Shown here: in pieces, positions 23,755-59,525 of the stretch
How the letters are laid out: every line of letters begins with the position of its first letter
Numbering within the stretch: the stretch's first letter is position 1
Position numbers and translations under genes: made by a program
Source of the DNA: Riemerella columbina
GTDB lineage: Bacteria > Bacteroidota > Bacteroidia > Flavobacteriales > Weeksellaceae
DNA: 64,000 bases
Direction of reading: 5' to 3'
Assembly: GCF_030517065.1 (NCBI RefSeq)
Contig: NZ_CP103950.1
Location: 496,001-560,000, forward strand
The notes under the pieces: generated by a model
Told to the model about the DNA's origin: nothing
The model's input: the letters and a program-made list of their open reading frames with translations, nothing else
Databases searched by the model: none

Positions 23755-24510
23755 ATGGCAAAAATAAATGTAAAAGACCTCTTAGAGGCAGGTGTTCACT
23801 TCGGACATATGACCAGAAAGTGGAATCCTAATATGGCTCCATACATCTTTATGGAGAAAAACGGTATTCACATTATTGATTTACATAAAACAGCAGTTAA
23901 GTTAGAAGAAGCTTGCCAAGCCTTAGAGAAAATAACCTCTGCAGGTAGAAAAGTCCTTTTCGTAGCCACTAAAAAGCAAGCGAAAGAGATCGTTGCTAAG
24001 CACGCCTCAGAACTTAATATGCCGTACATTACAGAAAGATGGCCAGGCGGTATGCTCACCAACTTCGTAACCATCAGAAAAGCGGTGAAGAAGATGAACG
24101 CTATCGATAAAATGAAAAAAGACGGCACATTTGAAACCCTTTCTAAAAAAGAAAGACTTCAAGTAGACAGACAAAGAGCGAACTTAGAGAAGAACTTAGG
24201 CTCTATCGCAGATATGGTGCGTCTTCCATCAGCTTTATTCGTAGTGGATATTATGAGAGAGCACATCGCGGTAACAGAAGCTAAAAAATTAGGTATCCCA
24301 GTATTCGCTATTGTTGATACCAACTCTGACCCAAGAAAAGTGGATTATGTAATCCCAGGGAACGATGACGCTTCTAAATCGATTGATATGATTTTATCAC
24401 AAGTATCAGACGCCATTAAAGAAGGTCAATCTCAAAGAAAAGCAGAAAAAGAAAAATCTAAAGAAGATACCAAAGTTTCTGCCGAGAAAGACGCCGATTT
24501 TGACGCATAA
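23755..24510 (+). CDS. rpsB: 30S ribosomal protein S2
   Basis: uS2, 251 residues. It has the LLEAGVHFGHMTRKWNP start, ERWPGGMLTNF, and the C-terminal VDTNSDPRKVDYVIPGNDDA, plus a charged tail rich in Lys/Glu. In most bacteria, including most flavobacteria, tsf follows directly; here a strong terminator and a gene-free stretch follow instead. Confidence 0.97.
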   Translation: MAKINVKDLLEAGVHFGHMTRKWNPNMAPYIFMEKNGIHIIDLHKTAVKLEEACQALEKITSAGRKVLFVATKKQAKEIVAKHASELNMPYITERWPGGMLTNFVTIRKAVKKMNAIDKMKKDGTFETLSKKERLQVDRQRANLEKNLGSIADMVRLPSALFVVDIMREHIAVTEAKKLGIPVFAIVDTNSDPRKVDYVIPGNDDASKSIDMILSQVSDAIKEGQSQRKAEKEKSKEDTKVSAEKDADFDA

Positions 24511-24534
24511 TCATTTTTTTCATAATAATAAGGA

Positions 24535-24569
24535 GAAGCTTAGCGGATTGATTTCGCTAAGCTTTTTTC
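24535..24569 (+). terminator. Terminator of the rplM-rpsI-rpsB run
   Basis: Perfect 10-bp arms AAGCTTAGCG and CGCTAAGCTT with a short loop, followed by T residues. It closes the ribosomal-protein transcription unit 25 nt after the rpsB stop. Confidence 0.88.
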
Positions 24570-25418
24570 ATACCCACCAAACACAGAAAAAGGGCACTGC
24601 AATAGCAGCACCCTCTTTTCAAACAATAGTATTATGGTAAAAAGAAACCAATGGTATCTCACCATTATTCCTTATGATACCCGTGTGGATCATTTTACAC
24701 AACAAATTTAGCACGCCGCAACCATATACTTTATGATTACAATCATAAAATAAAAACAAAATAAGATTAAAGCCACCCACCACAATAACCCACCCATTCC
24801 TTCAATTAAAAATAAGAACCACCAAAACCATAACGCCCTCAACGCCCTACGGAACCACCACCAAAACCTTATCAACCTTTATCATTTTTAATGAAATAAA
24901 GTCTCCCAATATCAGAATAAAACCCAAGCCTTTCAAAACAATAACCAATCCAAGCAAAGCTAATATCAAAGCCAGTAAAACAATCATCCAAGCAGGTAGA
25001 ATACTTATAAAAACCAACAAAATAACCCTCAAAAATAGCGGAATAACCAAAAAGAATAGCGGAATAACCAAAAAGAATAGCGGAAAATCAAAAAACAAGG
25101 GCGGAATGTCCATTATTTTAGGCGGAATAAAGACCAAATTCAACGGAAAATGTTTTTTGAGGGCGGAATATCAAAGATTAAGGGCGGAATATATAATATT
25201 CACAACGGAATACACAATCAATTGAATAAAATAATAAAATCAATCTCCAAAACACCCACCGAAATCTAACAAATAACCAATTACACCACTAAAATAACCC
25301 CCAACACCACCCAAAAGCCCATAAAAACTCTAAAAATAATGGATAACATCAGAAAAATAGAAACTCAAAACAGCGGAATAATAGACATCACCCCAGTAAT
25401 AACAGAGCCAAACACAAA
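24570..25418. other. Gene-free A/C-rich stretch between rpsB and the RluA gene
   Basis: About 850 bp without a convincing gene. The plus strand is strikingly rich in A and C and poor in G and T. It contains small inverted repeats, for example TTTATGATT/AATCATAAA at 24730-24749 and AATGGT/ACCATT near 24650. It also contains the 21-bp array described separately. A 98-codon open frame on the minus strand (24847-25143) runs through the array and is explained by the repeat. Confidence 0.7.
25017..25225. repeat. 21-bp periodic tandem repeat (about ten units)
   Basis: The core word GCGG/ACGG followed by AATA recurs at 25038, 25059, 25080, 25101, 25122, 25143, 25163, 25184 and 25205: spacing 21 bp except one 20-bp step. 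The best units read close to GCGGAATAACCAAAAAGAAT. A degenerate unit precedes them at 25017. Spacing is held even where the sequence between words has changed, which suggests that the period itself is selected or that units were amplified and then decayed. Confidence 0.85.
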
Positions 25419-26108
25419 TTAAAGGCTCTCGCAGGCTGCCCAAAGGGCATCGTGGGGAGGAACAGGCGCTATAATTTCCATTTCGGCTTTCGTAACAGGG
25501 TGGACAAACACCAGCTTTCGGGCGTGGAGAGAAATACCGCCGTCAGCATTAGAACGAGGGGCGCCATACTTTAGATCCCCCTTAATAGGAACGCCAATCT
25601 TCGCCAACTGGGCACGGATTTGATGATGTCGCCCCGTTTCCAAGTCAATTTCCAGAAGAAGATAGTGCGTTAGCGCTTGGATAATGCGGTAAGTCAGCGC
25701 CGCCTCCTTAGCCCCCGCCGTAGCCTTAGGGAATACAATCGCTTTATTATTTTTTTCATTCTTTTTAAGGTAATGCACCAAGCGTTGCGTGCGTGGCAGC
25801 GGTTCCTTAGGCGTAATCGCCCAATAAGTCTTCACAATCTCCCTCTTTTTAATCATTTGCGTCAGTCGGGACAGCGCTTTTGAAGTCTTCGCATAGATAA
25901 CCAAGCCAGAAGTCGGGCGGTCTATCCTATGCACCAAGCCCAAGAACACATTTCCAGGCTTGTTATCCCTCACTTTTATGAAATCCTTCAACAATTCCAG
26001 CAAAGAGGTATCGCCCGTCTTATCACCTTGCACCAATTGCCCCGCTTTTTTATTGATGATGAGCAAATGATTGTCCTCGTACACAATTTGATTGGCAATA
26101 CCCTCCAT
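25419..26108 (-). CDS. RluA-family pseudouridine synthase
   Basis: A 229-residue RNA pseudouridine synthase without an S4 domain. The catalytic aspartate lies in HRIDRPTSGLVIYAKTSKAL. The segments ETGRHHQIRAQLA and GAPRSNADGGISLHARKL are RluA-family motifs. Likely substrates are rRNA or tRNA uridines; the exact site is unknown. I start at the ATG at 26108, six nt after the stop of the small membrane protein upstream; the alternative TTG at 26114 is unlikely. Confidence 0.88.
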   Translation of the reverse strand: MEGIANQIVYEDNHLLIINKKAGQLVQGDKTGDTSLLELLKDFIKVRDNKPGNVFLGLVHRIDRPTSGLVIYAKTSKALSRLTQMIKKREIVKTYWAITPKEPLPRTQRLVHYLKKNEKNNKAIVFPKATAGAKEAALTYRIIQALTHYLLLEIDLETGRHHQIRAQLAKIGVPIKGDLKYGAPRSNADGGISLHARKLVFVHPVTKAEMEIIAPVPPHDALWAACESL

Positions 26109-26114
26109 AATCAA

Positions 26115-26441
26115 CTAAATTTGATGCGTTTTATTTCTAAAAATGAAAGAAGGAATAATGCAGCACAGCAATCCCACCGCCGTAAGGTACGGAACCGAAG
26201 GCAACAGCTTCCCAACCACCACCAAAACACCAGAAATAACAATCCAATACCTTAGCAAAGGCTTCTTGTACTGCAACCCAACGAGCATAAAGGTGATGCC
26301 CATAAAAATATAGAAAACTTGGTTACGCAACAAGTCATTAACCGCCTCCGAGAACGGCTTAACCCAACCGATAACCAAGCAAATTAAAGTTAAAACTGAA
26401 AAAATAAGCTGTAAGTTCTTTAAAACAATCTTCTTATTCAT
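26115..26441 (-). CDS. Small membrane protein, unknown function
   Basis: A 108-residue protein with about four hydrophobic stretches (LQLIFSVLTLICLVIGWV; VFYIFMGITFMLVGLQY; YWIVISGVLVVVGKLL; AVGLLCCIIPSFIF) and a basic N-terminus. I do not recognise the family. It is coupled to the pseudouridine synthase gene (6-nt gap), and the pair is flanked on both sides by 21-bp repeat arrays. Confidence 0.65.
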   Translation of the reverse strand: MNKKIVLKNLQLIFSVLTLICLVIGWVKPFSEAVNDLLRNQVFYIFMGITFMLVGLQYKKPLLRYWIVISGVLVVVGKLLPSVPYLTAVGLLCCIIPSFIFRNKTHQI

Positions 26442-26480
26442 AAAAATAATCGTTTCTTTTATTAAAACAATGCATTTTTA

Positions 26481-26541
26481 GAGCGGAATAACCTAAAAAA
26501 GGTAAGGAATAACCCTAAAAATAGGCGTAATAACTTAGTAA
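26481..26541. repeat. Second 21-bp array (three units)
   Basis: GCGGAATAACC at 26483, AAGGAATAACC at 26504 and GCGTAATAAC at 26525 are exactly 21 bp apart, with A-tracts between them. The core matches the array at 25.0 kb in the same orientation. The last unit overlaps the panB stop codon. The array fills most of the gap between panB and the small membrane protein gene. Confidence 0.75.
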
Positions 26542-27350
26542 CTCTCACTTTCGTTAGGGAAATTTTGCGTTTTTACATCCTGCACATACTGAGCCACCGC
26601 CCCCGTGATTTCATTGTAGAGGTCTAAGTAGCGGCGGAGGAACTTCGGCGAGAAACCTTGGTTCATTCCCACCATATCTTGATAAACCAGCACCTGACCA
26701 TCGCAGCCAGCCCCCGCGCCAATGCCTATCGTTGGGATATTGACCTTCTCAGACACCGTTTGAGCCAGTGCCGCAGGGATTTTTTCCAAAACCAAAGCAA
26801 AACAGCCCAACTCTTCCAGCAATTGAGCATCGCGGATGAGTTTTTCAGCCTCCGCTTCCTCTTTAGCCCTCACCTTATAGGTCCCGAACTGATAGATGGA
26901 CTGCGGCGTAAGCCCCAAATGCCCCATAACAGGGATCCCCGCGTGCACAATCTTCTTGATGGACTTGGCAACCTCCTCGCCACCCTCTAATTTGATGGCG
27001 TGGGCTTCGGCTTCCTTCATAATTCTGATGGCAGACTCCAGCGCTTTGTCGGCATTACTCTGGTAAGTTCCAAATGGCAAATCCACCACCACCAATGCCC
27101 GCTGAACCCCACGGATCACCGACTGTGCGTGGTAGATCATCTGGTCTAAGGTAATAGGCAGCGTTGTTTCGTGCCCAGCCATCACATTGGCGGCGGAATC
27201 ACCCACCAAAATGGCATCTACACCGCCCGCATCCACCATTTTAGCCGTAGTGAAGTCATAAGCGGTAAGCATAGTGATTTTTTCCTTCCGAAACTTCATT
27301 TGGCGGAGCGTCTCGGTGGTTATTTTTTTAATATCGGAATGTACAGACAT
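26535..27350 (-). CDS. panB: 3-methyl-2-oxobutanoate hydroxymethyltransferase
   Basis: First committed step of pantothenate synthesis, adding a hydroxymethyl group to ketoisovalerate. The 271-residue TIM-barrel protein has [21 protein letters not shown], the metal ligand aspartate in [30 protein letters not shown] and [17 protein letters not shown]. The length is normal. It ends inside the second 21-bp array. Confidence 0.96.
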
Positions 27351-54245: not shown

Positions 54246-54425
54246 CCACTAGGACAAGAATGGAACAGACATTGGGATAATTGGCTTAGAAAAAATGAAA
54301 ATAGATTACAAAAAATAGGAAAGGAAAGAGCAGGAAAAATGATAGAAAAACATTTAGATAAGATAGCTAAAAAATCTGGAATTAATGATTATAATTCTTC
54401 AATTATAAAAAAATGCGGAGGTTAA
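54246..54425 (+). pseudogene. C-terminal toxin-tip remnant
   Basis: A 59-codon open stretch without a start codon: PLGQEWNRHWDNWLRKNEN, later KMIEKHLDKIAKKSGINDY, ending KKCGG-TAA. The GxxWNxxWxxW pattern and the closing helix resemble the tails of HNH-type nuclease toxins of Rhs or similar systems. It ends 2 nt before the SUKH gene at 54428, the usual toxin-immunity order. Confidence 0.55.
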
Positions 54426-54427
54426 AC

Positions 54428-54880
54428 ATGGTAATTCATAGTATTGAAGAAATATCTAATGGGAGATTAAATAAATTTTCTAAACCTGATGAAATATATG
54501 ATTTCTTTAATGGAAAAGAATTATCTAGTGATTTTATTTTTACAAATTATAATGAGTATTATCAATATAAAGAATTAATGGGTAATTATTCAAATAGATT
54601 TTTTGTTTTTGCCACTACAGGCCAAGGTGATTTATGGCTATTTGATAAAGAAAATCAAGAAATTTATTATTATAACCATGATGCTGAAAATGTATCCTTT
54701 TCTAATTTCATAAATCTTGATTTTGACATATATAAATGGTTAATAGTCGCTGATCTTTTTAAGCAAATTGATAATTTATCCGAAAGTGATGCTTTAACAG
54801 AAAAAGATCAAGCAACTTTTAAAGCTATGATCAAAAAAATAGCTCCCAAATTATTAGAAATTTTTGATTTAGGCATATAA
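54428..54880 (+). CDS. SMI1/KNR4 (SUKH)-like immunity protein
   Basis: A 150-residue protein. The segment FFVFATTGQGDLWLFDKENQ with the following IYYYNHDAENV is typical of the SUKH superfamily core, whose members neutralise nuclease toxins. I start at ATG 54428 (MVIHSIEE); an upstream in-frame codon at 54413 lies inside the toxin remnant. It directly follows a toxin tail, so it was probably that toxin's immunity gene. Confidence 0.7.
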   Translation: MVIHSIEEISNGRLNKFSKPDEIYDFFNGKELSSDFIFTNYNEYYQYKELMGNYSNRFFVFATTGQGDLWLFDKENQEIYYYNHDAENVSFSNFINLDFDIYKWLIVADLFKQIDNLSESDALTEKDQATFKAMIKKIAPKLLEIFDLGI

Positions 54881-54904
54881 AACAAACCATTGATAGCAAT
54901 ATTG

Positions 54905-55068
54905 TAGACAGGTAAAATTTATGAATTTGACATTCCAAAACCTGGAGGAGGAAAGCGAAGAATTCAAATTGGATTACATGTAATGATGAACAATAGTCAT
55001 ATATGAAAAATAAACCACGTATAAATTGTTCAAAAGTAGCAAAAGAGTTAGGAATAAATATAAAATGA
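54905..55068 (+). pseudogene. Second toxin-tip remnant, frameshifted
   Basis: The frame at 54908 reads TGKIYEFDIPKPGGGKRRIQ and onwards to a TGA at 55003; an overlapping frame from 55003 reads MKNKPRINCSKVAKELGINIK then TGA (55066-55068). Joined by a frameshift the two would make a plausible short toxin C-terminus. The final TGA overlaps the ATG at 55065 (ATGA), the coupling usual for toxin-immunity pairs. Confidence 0.45.
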
Positions 55069-55193
55069 AACATGATTTAACTTTATTTGATTTAAAAGTA
55101 TTCTTAAATGCGAACAAAAGTGAATGGTTGGAAATTTTAAAAAGGATAACAAATGAAATTCAAAAATATAGAACAAGCAATTATCGCATTTAA
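55065..55193 (+). pseudogene. Short immunity-gene remnant
   Basis: A 42-codon frame, MKHDLTLFDLKVFLNANKSE and onwards, that overlaps the toxin-tip stop by ATGA and then runs into the DUF2019 gene in another frame, ending at 55193. It looks like the start of an immunity gene whose remainder was replaced. Confidence 0.4.
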
Positions 55194-55509
55194 AAAAAAT
55201 GCGGAACTACATGGGAAAGCAACTCTAACAGGAGAATATAAGGTTGTTAATAAAAGTTATAAAGAAATACAAAAGGCAAAAGAGTTTCTTCTTTCAGAAA
55301 ATAAATTAGATGATTTACAATGCTTATTAAATGATAGCTCTAGCTCTGTTATAAGTTGGGCTGCAAGTTATTTATTGTTTAGTGAAAAGTATTCTGAACT
55401 TAGCCAAAAAAAACTTGAAGATATAGGTTCTGGTTCTGGAATTCTAGCATCAGATGCAAGACAAATACTAGAAGAGTGGAAACTAGGTAATTTAAGCTTA
55501 GAAAATTAA
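55153..55509 (+). CDS. DUF2019-type immunity protein
   Basis: A 118-residue helical protein. The segment LNDSSSSVISWAASYLLFSE followed by LASDARQILEEWK fits DUF2019, a HEAT-like family found beside polymorphic toxins. It has no toxin gene of its own; the same reading frame continues after its stop into an Rhs-core fragment. An orphan immunity role is likely. Confidence 0.68.
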   Translation: MKFKNIEQAIIAFKKNAELHGKATLTGEYKVVNKSYKEIQKAKEFLLSENKLDDLQCLLNDSSSSVISWAASYLLFSEKYSELSQKKLEDIGSGSGILASDARQILEEWKLGNLSLEN

Positions 55510-55593
55510 GAAAGCGGCTTAGCGTATAGCCGATTTCGATATTATAATCCAAAAGCAAAAGAAGAATTAGTAAAAAGAGGAGAAGTCTTATGA
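55510..55593 (+). pseudogene. Rhs-core fragment 1
   Basis: The frame directly after the DUF2019 stop reads ESGLAYSRFRYYNPKAKEEL and ends at a TGA (55591-55593) that overlaps the ATG of the next gene. ESGLAYxRFRYYxP is the conserved Rhs-repeat-associated core motif. Almost the whole toxin tip is missing after it. Confidence 0.75.
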
Positions 55594-56021
55594 ATTTAGA
55601 AACAATTGCTAGATTAGAAAAATATTTTAATAAAAATCAGAATTTAAAAGGTACACCTGTTAAAGAAGCCGATATTATTTCTGCTCAAAATAACTTAGGG
55701 ATAAAATTTAATTCAGATTACATATATTTTCTAGAAAAATATGGCGGTTCAAGTGCTGGAATTGATATTTATTCAATATCTTCTACAACAAACTCTAGCG
55801 TTGTAGGCAATGAAAATGTTGTAGATCAGACGATTTACTTATGGAATGAATATTCTCAGCATAACAACTTCCTCAAAAACCTATATGCCATTTCTGATGA
55901 TGGTTCAGGAAACCCTATTTTAATGCATCCAAATGGAGAAATTTTTATTTTCTATCATGATAATTTCACTATTGAAAAACTTTATAGTAATCTTGAAGAG
56001 TTATTTCAACAATCTTTATAA
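55590..56021 (+). CDS. SMI1/KNR4 (SUKH-1) immunity protein
   Basis: A 143-residue SUKH protein. ISAQNNLGIKFNSDYIYFLEKYGG is the typical N-terminal SUKH helix-strand region, and YAISDDGSGNPILMHPNGEI the core. The ATG overlaps the TGA of Rhs fragment 1, so translation was probably coupled to a toxin upstream. After its stop the same frame continues into Rhs fragment 2. Confidence 0.78.
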   Translation: MNLETIARLEKYFNKNQNLKGTPVKEADIISAQNNLGIKFNSDYIYFLEKYGGSSAGIDIYSISSTTNSSVVGNENVVDQTIYLWNEYSQHNNFLKNLYAISDDGSGNPILMHPNGEIFIFYHDNFTIEKLYSNLEELFQQSL

Positions 56022-56770: not shown

Positions 56771-56945
56771 GAAGTTGCCGTTTTCTAAAAATGTCAAAGA
56801 TTTTAAAAAATAAAATTGCTGTTTTAAAGAGAAGATTGTTAGTAAAAGAAGTGGTATTATATGCAGAGAAAAAAAATAACATCGCTAAAAAAATAACATC
56901 GTCCACCCCAATGCAACCCACAAAAACAGCCTATCAGTAGAGAAA
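56771..56945. other. Junction between the Rhs island and the third 21-bp array
   Basis: About 175 bp without a gene. It contains a repeated word AAAATAACATCG (near 56874 and 56892). The composition changes here from island-like to array-like. Confidence 0.4.
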
Positions 56946-57223
56946 AGCCCAACTGTAAAGGGTAAAAATAGAATTGCAATGGGGGGAAACCCAACTGTAA
57001 AGGGTAAAAATAGAATTGCAATGGGGGGAAACCCAACTGTAAAGGGTAAAAATAGAATTGTAATAGGGGGAAACCCAACTGCAACAGGGAAAAATAGAAT
57101 TGTAACGGGGGAAAACCCAATTGTAAAGGGTAAAAACGCAACTGCAACAGGGAAAAATAGAATTGCAATGGGGGAAAACCCAACTGCAACAGGGAAAACC
57201 CTAAAAGCAATAAGAAAGTTTTA
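56946..57223. repeat. Third 21-bp periodic array (13 units)
   Basis: The word AACTG or AATTG recurs at 56951, 56972, 56993, 57014, 57035, 57056, 57077, 57098, 57119, 57140, 57161 and 57182, with a degenerate one at 57203: exactly 21 bp each time. Units alternate between a form with AAAGGGTAAAAATAG and one with AATGGGGGGAAACCC, giving a 42-bp higher-order unit. Frames stay open on both strands because 21 is a multiple of three, so the long open frames here (for example 56979-57224 plus) are a consequence of the repeat. Confidence 0.88.
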
Positions 57224-57289
57224 ATAAATCTGTGGCTGGTGTGATAAAAATCAGTATATTTACACAATCAATTATAAAAATCTAATCTT

Positions 57290-57943
57290 ATGAAAAAGTA
57301 CTTTTCCAACCAACAGACCCTGCAAGACTACGGCATTCTCTTTGAAAACCTTAGTACCCAAGCCGAATTAAAAACCCAACTCGCAGAATACGGTTATGAC
57401 GATACCGAAGTGCAAAAAGGCAAAACCCTCTACAACAAAGCGAAAGAAGTCTATCAGGAAAACATTAAAGAAGGGCAGGAGGAGACCACCGCCTACGCAC
57501 AGTTTACCGCCGCCTTAGAGCAGCTCCTCAACACCTACAAAACCGACCGCAAAAAGGCAAAAATCATCTACAAAGACCAGCCCGAAATCCTTAAAAACCT
57601 CCGCATTAAGGGGCAGAGCTCCCGCCAGATGGCAAACCTATTAGACGAGGTCAGCACCTTCTACCGCAGCCTGAAAGACGACAGCACTTTGCTAAGCCCA
57701 CTCAATAGGCTGAAAGTGACAGAAGACAGCGTAAATGCCCAAATCACACAATTAGAAAAAACACAAAAAGCCTACGCCACCTACACCCAAGAGAAGGGCG
57801 AAAACCAAGATGCCACCAAGCGGAAAAACGCCGCCTTTGCCGATTTAGAAAAATGGGTAAAAGAGTTTTACAGCATTGCCAAAATCGCATTAGAAGACCG
57901 CCCGCAGTTGTTAGAGAGCGTCGCCAAATTTGTAAGAAGTTAA
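57290..57943 (+). CDS. Helical protein of unknown function
   Basis: A 217-residue, almost wholly helical, charged protein: KKYFSNQQTLQDYGILFENL at the start, LRIKGQSSRQMANLLDEV and ITQLEKTQKAYATYTQEKGE later. No signal peptide or membrane helix. I do not recognise a characterised family. Codon use is chromosome-like, unlike the island before it. It sits 67 nt after a 21-bp array and has its own terminator. Confidence 0.75.
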   Translation: MKKYFSNQQTLQDYGILFENLSTQAELKTQLAEYGYDDTEVQKGKTLYNKAKEVYQENIKEGQEETTAYAQFTAALEQLLNTYKTDRKKAKIIYKDQPEILKNLRIKGQSSRQMANLLDEVSTFYRSLKDDSTLLSPLNRLKVTEDSVNAQITQLEKTQKAYATYTQEKGENQDATKRKNAAFADLEKWVKEFYSIAKIALEDRPQLLESVAKFVRS

Positions 57944-58921: not shown

Positions 58922-59525
58922 ATGATTGACAAAAATGAACTTTTAAACAGTAAGGAATTTTATAAGTCCTTCAAGAATGGAGAAGACCTAAACTCTTTCT
59001 TCAAAGAACTGCACAAGAAAGCCATAGAACATATGCTATCGGCAGAACTTGACGCTCATTTAAACAATGAAAAACACCATAAAACCAAAGATGGTAACTA
59101 CCGCAACGGGTATGGTAAAAAAACTATAAAAACTTCCTTTGGAGAATGTGATTATTTCTTTATATGCCAAAGGGATGAGTGTATTGACCGATTTAAAGGC
59201 TCGGGGAGTGGAGGATATCCTCATTACCGCTACCGATAATTTAAATGGATTTACTCAGACCATTAGTTCGGTATTCCCACAGTCACAAACTCAAATATGC
59301 GTAGTGCACCAAATGCAAAGCATTCATGAACACCTATAAAATAATAAATATTGTGAACTAAAATACACCAAAAATAAGATGTCTTTCCCTACCGATGAGG
59401 CGGTTATGAAGTCAGTATATCTCTCTATAAGAGAAGCCACTAAGAAATGGTCGATGCCTATTAAGAATTGGGGGTTGGTTTTAAACCAATTTATGCTTAT
59501 ATTTGACCAAAGACTCAGACTCTAA
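58922..59525 (+). pseudogene. IS256-family transposase remnant (copy 1)
   Basis: The start MIDKNELLNSKEFYKSFKNG and the segment MLSAELDAHLNNEKHH, then NYRNGYGKKTIKTSFGE, are IS256-type. Internal deletions remove the region with the first catalytic aspartate. Later pieces LTDLKARGVEDILITATDNL, VFPQSQTQICVVHQM and [20 protein letters not shown] survive in shifted frames. It cannot make an active enzyme. Confidence 0.85.

Follow-up and report, generated by a model that had tools for sequence, protein, structure and literature searches.

Phased 21-bp direct repeats in Riemerella columbina that look like orphan members of a Weeksellaceae array family usually placed upstream of PQLLE genes

Bacterial intergenic repeats are mostly regarded as neutral. 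Plasmid iterons are direct repeats that stand next to a gene, with a period close to two helical turns and a core that is conserved. Among Bacteroidota, the BrickBuilt MITE of Porphyromonas gingivalis resembles the array described here in being intergenic and built of direct repeats in tandem, each about two helical turns long, and resembles the wider family described below in being present as several dispersed copies per genome; no matches to its 23-nt repeat are reported outside the species (PMC4596501). The TAACTGA heptamer repeats are also intergenic direct repeats, and some long arrays of them occur in Bacteroidetes, including Elizabethkingia (PMC4679880).

The locus considered here lies in a window of 64,000 nucleotides, bases 496001-560000 of an assembly comprising one contig of 2.04 Mb, with a G+C content of about 41% in a 396-kb sample of the genome. 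Gene names (rpsB, panB, pnp, carB) were assigned by eye. The arrays and their neighbours, in window coordinates, are these.

23755-24510, + strand: 251-aa ORF, rpsB-like (named by eye)
24720-25418, no strand assigned: full extent of the 21-bp periodicity, with decay at either end, lying between the convergent rpsB-like and rluA-like genes; lag-21 z 9.5
25038-25225, + strand: array core of nine units with invariant CGGAA (TTCCGC on the other strand), matched by the genome-wide pattern
25373-25393, + strand: lone unit GCGGAATAATA, in register with the last unit at a distance of 168 bp (8 x 21)
25419-26114, - strand: 231-aa ORF, RluA-type (as named in the sequence-only reading of this DNA)
26115-26441, - strand: ORF for a small membrane protein of 108 aa; no Pfam match above cut-off
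26483-26545, + strand: second block, three units, crossing the 3' end of the panB-like gene
26535-27350, - strand: 271-aa ORF, panB-like (named by eye)

The sequence-only reading had described 21-bp arrays at two sites, ten units and three, sharing a core in the same orientation. CGGAA starts at 25039, 25060, 25081, 25102, 25123, 25144, 25164, 25185 and 25206, which confirms the spacing (seven steps of 21 bp, one of 20 bp) but places the pentamer in nine units, not ten, the tenth, near 25017, being without it. The common core holds in the form (G)CGGAA(T), with CGGAA identical in 9/9 units, but the full 11-mer GCGGAATAACC has only three exact copies in the window; one of them, at 26483, opens the second block and is followed, each time exactly 21 bp on, by AGGAATAACC and then GCGTAATAAC. 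A-tracts, claimed for every 21 bp, recur in about the first three units only, and intrinsic bending therefore seems weak as a general explanation of the arrays.

Conservation is uneven along the unit. Mutual identity of the nine window units, taken pairwise, is 0.89 for positions 1-7 and 0.41 for the remaining fourteen, where 0.31 is expected from composition; units 1 and 2 are identical in sequence. Under a uniform-decay model with one ancestral unit, the contrast of core and spacer has p = 0.0008. The units at 25.0-25.2 kb are real, as had been claimed, but lag-21 periodicity reaches more widely, over about 24720-25418 (limits set by eye). Lag 21 is the top lag of the left flank (24720-25010, z 4.1) and ranks second in the right flank (25216-25418, z 3.2; lag 42, z 3.8), and in both flanks 0/1000 dinucleotide shuffles reach the lag-21 value or the best value across lags 12-59; the signal is absent from 24530-24720 (z 0.3). 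The contrast within the unit and the shuffles of the flanks together bear out the claim of a fixed word at two helical turns, beyond chance. Pure chance as the origin of the array is ruled out by the shuffles and by reversed controls. Rfam gave no matches at gathering scores in the window.

A search of the whole genome with spacing, such as had been proposed, used a pattern of three TTCCG words at 20-22-bp spacing and gave 38 matches at four places: the window array, 1233.93-1234.04 kb, 1308.77-1309.25 kb and 1821.12-1821.31 kb. The reversed control gave 0. The sequence-only reading had named as refutation the finding of only these copies, with unit and phase lost in close relatives; the first half is untrue, because the word is present at three other genome sites. 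At 1308.77-1309.25 kb the array has 62-bp higher-order units of 21+21+20, and such units are common to two orphan sites (see below). A reading of the repeats as coding heptads was rejected because the 20-bp steps and the 62-bp higher-order unit break the frame.

Two arrays of this genome lie directly upstream of paralogous genes for helical proteins of 217-218 aa. One is the array at 1821119-1821311, upstream of the gene at 1820392-1821051; the other is in the window.

56942-57198, + strand: cassette array of a second array family of the window, 21-bp period, word CAAYTGYAAYRGG
57255-57262, + strand: TATATTTA, candidate Bacteroidota -7 box (lax pattern), between array and gene
57290-57943, + strand: PQLLE-family gene, 217 aa, downstream of the 56942-57198 array; NF052641 E 4e-67

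The word CAAYTGYAAYRGG is also repeated at 21 bp at 1000.27-1000.45 kb. The array-linked helical proteins, of about 220 aa, belong to NCBIfam NF052641, 'PQLLE family protein'. Elsewhere around the cassette, short ORFs resembling SMI1/KNR4-type immunity proteins by eye lie upstream (window 54413-56021), and an ORF at window 58922-59239 resembles, again by eye, a transposase fragment. Across 460 of 2045 kb of the genome (22%, window included), the strong noncoding periodic arrays have periods of 21, 42, 42, 42 and 62 bp, with one further 77-bp CRISPR-like array; the last (L013:5856-7367, genome about 1105.9-1107.4 kb) has some 20 copies and looks like a CRISPR array. In aggregate noncoding DNA lag 21 comes top in the sampled part of this genome, with z 3.5 even when the strong arrays are removed, and is not the top lag in 10 relatives.

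Linkage to PQLLE genes was assessed across 148 Weeksellaceae genomes with a profile built from seven proteins, all found beside arrays. It matched 40 places in 20/148 genomes, among them 37 full genes, of which 36 with 700 bp of upstream sequence formed the tested set. A period of 21n bp at z >= 5.5 is present upstream of 34/36, and upstream of 27/29 when the seven seed genes are left out, the two exceptions being L255 (50-bp period) and L267 (none). In the control, with 200 aa as the minimum ORF length, such an array precedes only 5/512, two of which are a DUF6261 gene and the PQLLE gene of the window. A unit model with steps of 20-22 finds at least 5 units in 36/36, a figure that is descriptive only, as the model imposes the step. 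The usual place of the 21-bp array family is thus just upstream of PQLLE-family genes (NF052641). The contrast of core and spacer is found, at p <= 0.005, in 7/9 cassette arrays tested, A-rich positions recur in the array words, and a candidate -7 box, by a lax pattern without shuffled control, lies between array and start in 26/36 cassettes. Relatives, too, have arrays of 21-bp period, some with related words and some with different ones; a general pattern search matched 60/148 genomes, which is not an array count because many of the matches are single ones inside apparent genes. In L235:2277-2546, L246 and related Kaistella-type loci one inverted unit stands at the gene-proximal end of the array, and in G099, G075 and G035 the inverted end unit, as read from the sequence, would form a near-perfect hairpin followed by a T-run. 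A PQLLE fragment at G000:C1:955278-955493 (75-aa open frame, E 2e-19) is probably a relic.

Outside the Weeksellaceae search set, a PQLLE match was found in 5/395 genomes of the class, our own genome included. Of three strong PQLLE genes outside the family, one has no detected array and two have 42-bp arrays (z 11.6 and 7.0), whose ends lie 204 and 396 bp short of the ORF start used; two weak matches were also obtained outside the set. PQLLE is not a basic protein: over 35 members the median pI is 6.9 and the net charge averages -0.8. No Pfam match above cut-off was obtained for four of them, a PDB sequence search gave weak matches only (best E 0.014), and an AlphaFold2 model of the window protein made without alignment was unusable (pLDDT 48.5). 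PQLLE relatives were absent from viral contigs, and searches of plasmids and phages gave no match.

The arrays at 25-26.5 kb share with this family the 21-bp step and the word of the array before the PQLLE gene at 1820392-1821051. A PQLLE gene lies directly downstream of 56942-57198 but not of the arrays at 25-26.5 kb, and we term the latter 'orphan' because whole-genome searches gave no PQLLE match near 25-26.5 kb. They sit at gene 3' ends, not before the promoter of a gene in the same direction. The two genes that they flank, pointed out in the sequence-only reading, are incidental, because such arrays belong upstream of PQLLE-family genes; the rluA loci fetched from five congeners lack the array. 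By sequence comparison, the window arrays look like orphans, in part decayed, of a family of phased direct repeats with a 21-bp step in Weeksellaceae.

Similar arrays accompany a second protein family. Genes for DUF6261 (PF19775) have 41/42-bp arrays upstream in 7/12 loci, in one case at a distance of 356 bp, or in 6/11 without the seed locus; many of the units appear palindromic by eye. This genome has one such gene (L009 14187-14864, genome about 714-715 kb; PF19775 E 1.2e-43), with a 42-bp array directly upstream (L009:14967-15201) and a carB-like gene beside it. Homology between PQLLE and DUF6261 is unsupported (hhalign probability 9.7%, E 0.0033). A PDB sequence search with DUF6261 gave only a weak match (E 0.96), and one DUF6261 protein had no relatives in viral contigs. 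Elsewhere, Bergeyella zoohelcum has a 63-bp array (L045:2281-2490), near rluA, upstream of a gene (2535-2846) for a helical protein of 103 aa that matches no family above cut-off. In another related genome, a 21-bp array (L222:2909-3150) between genes read by eye as replication-initiator-like and resolvase-like probably represents true plasmid iterons.

Array words follow the protein clades. Word similarity tracks PQLLE protein identity (Mantel rho 0.57, 0/5000 permutations, n=35, a set that includes G076a with its non-21 region). Paralogues within one genome have differing words (mean cosine 0.24, 32 pairs), while words are similar (0.43, 141 pairs) where proteins of separate genomes are more than 55% identical. 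Joint descent of array and gene could by itself be enough to make words track clades. In genus g26 (36 genomes) the local word is present in 10/10 PQLLE-positive vs 4/26 PQLLE-negative genomes (p = 4e-6), the positive count including the cassette arrays themselves; for orphan arrays alone the figures are 5/10 vs 4/26 (p = 0.08).

Sequence identities indicate that blocks of array plus gene move between species. The window PQLLE block and that of a genome of another genus (G065) are 92.7% identical along 898 bp that start inside the array and end at the stop codon, and the two PQLLE proteins are 99% identical, where RluA of congeners is only 79% identical. Two species, G000 and G001, share a block of cargo, array and PQLLE-d in which the upstream cargo DNA is 99.9% identical over 1650 bp and the arrays, of 10 and 7 units, differ by 63 bp, exactly 3 units. 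The G001 DNA downstream of PQLLE-d matches the PQLLE-a site of G000 (87% vs 50%), with the switch point near the PQLLE 3' end. At one Kaistella-type site at least 10 loci share the gene beyond PQLLE and differ in the genes beyond the array, G142 and G035 having one cargo family in common. Several cargo genes, some of them for restriction or abortive infection, encode MTase, Mrr, AbiH, AriB-like or HsdS proteins. PADLOC at E <= 1e-3 matched 6/10 neighbours at these sites and 7/10 others picked by eye, but also 4/10 ORFs of a random control, one a clear HsdS, so that the threshold is not selective; because matches are common in the random control, an enrichment of defence genes can be taken as a lead only.

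What the arrays are for is best approached, in our tentative view, through protein binding. We give a probability of roughly 45% to a helically phased multi-site binding array whose partner is PQLLE or its regulator. Each 21-bp unit would be a recognition site on one helix face, and copies of the partner, PQLLE itself or a regulator of PQLLE, would sit in a row next to the promoter, two turns apart; slippage would change the number of units, and unit number would tune occupancy. The partner of a given word could also bind the orphan arrays that carry it. Binding sites on one face would be expected to look as these arrays do, with a conserved core every two turns, less constrained spacers and a word that goes with the neighbouring protein, and a multimeric DNA-binding partner, as the sequence-only reading had suggested, is possible. 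Against the binding reading, PQLLE is not basic and arrays persist without the gene in 4/26 PQLLE-negative g26 genomes. The latter observation speaks for the main rival, a neutral minisatellite, in which slippage would expand and contract the units, horizontal transfer would carry them with PQLLE blocks, orphans would be relics and the period would be inherited, not selected. The three-unit difference between otherwise near-identical blocks, the decayed edges of the window array and the 62-bp units common to two orphan sites also speak for such an origin. It appears somewhat unlikely, however, given the uneven conservation along the unit in the window and in most cassette arrays tested, a period that remains 21 although words differ between clades, and the placing of arrays upstream of PQLLE, DUF6261 and few other ORFs.

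Two further explanations address the setting of the arrays. The G000/G001 block, standing before downstream DNA that matches the PQLLE-a site, the Kaistella-type site with its changing genes and the nature of the cargo would all suit a recombination anchor, the array and PQLLE giving homology for the swapping of upstream cargo, often restriction-modification or other defence genes. The crossover found is in the gene, not the array, the window arrays are without cargo and PADLOC matches are found among random ORFs too, and we hold this to be quite improbable. The position of arrays upstream of a candidate -7 box and their recurrent A-rich positions might alternatively point to a purely cis-regulatory role. 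The array would then serve the downstream promoter as an upstream activating element or as curved DNA, and its reader would be RNA polymerase or some general nucleoid protein, not a partner of its own. That seems very improbable, as the window arrays stand before no promoter of a same-direction gene and a general binder would not need clade-specific words.

The broader pattern is of a repeat period that is kept while the word changes, and changes with the downstream gene. If the array is the protein's address, PQLLE and its word would form a fast-diversifying DNA-protein recognition pair, each paralogue should favour its own word and the 21-bp phase, and there would be a first handle on two name-only protein families, PQLLE and DUF6261. 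It is conceivable, though on balance unlikely, that all this reflects an undescribed chromosomal module of Bacteroidota, in which a satellite-like array keeps its two-turn period, the word turns over, and each word has its own PQLLE or DUF6261 paralogue, a helical protein that would recognise its own array and, throughout the chromosome, orphan arrays with that word, the two forming an addressable DNA-protein pair; such a module would also anchor swaps of accessory genes.

In the open-access literature, with subscription papers largely outside its scope, no account was found of these arrays, of the PQLLE family or of arrays at DUF6261 genes, and the NF052641 and PF19775 entries, as returned, carry names without function and no mention of arrays. 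A CRISPR array is rejected for the window since the conserved part is only about 7/21 bp, not a long repeat with unique spacers. The present arrays differ from plasmid iterons in being chromosomal, with no adjacent replication initiator and with a protein that is not basic, binding being only putative; for the window array an iteron is further rejected by the single 2.04-Mb contig and the adjoining ORFs, read by eye as chromosomal housekeeping genes. The TAACTGA repeats have a 7-bp word and, in the Beggiatoaceae genome studied, for the most part immediately precede start codons (PMC4679880), whereas the present arrays have a 21-bp period and are usually upstream of a candidate promoter box; the heptamer is in none of the nine window units. 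BrickBuilt has a 23-nt unit and a leader and tail with inverted-repeat ends (PMC4596501), and the window period, 21 and not 23 nt, sets it aside as an identification. The present family is distinguished from it by a period of 21 bp, by its many words and by its linkage to PQLLE (NF052641) and DUF6261 (PF19775), the families whose genes carry such arrays.
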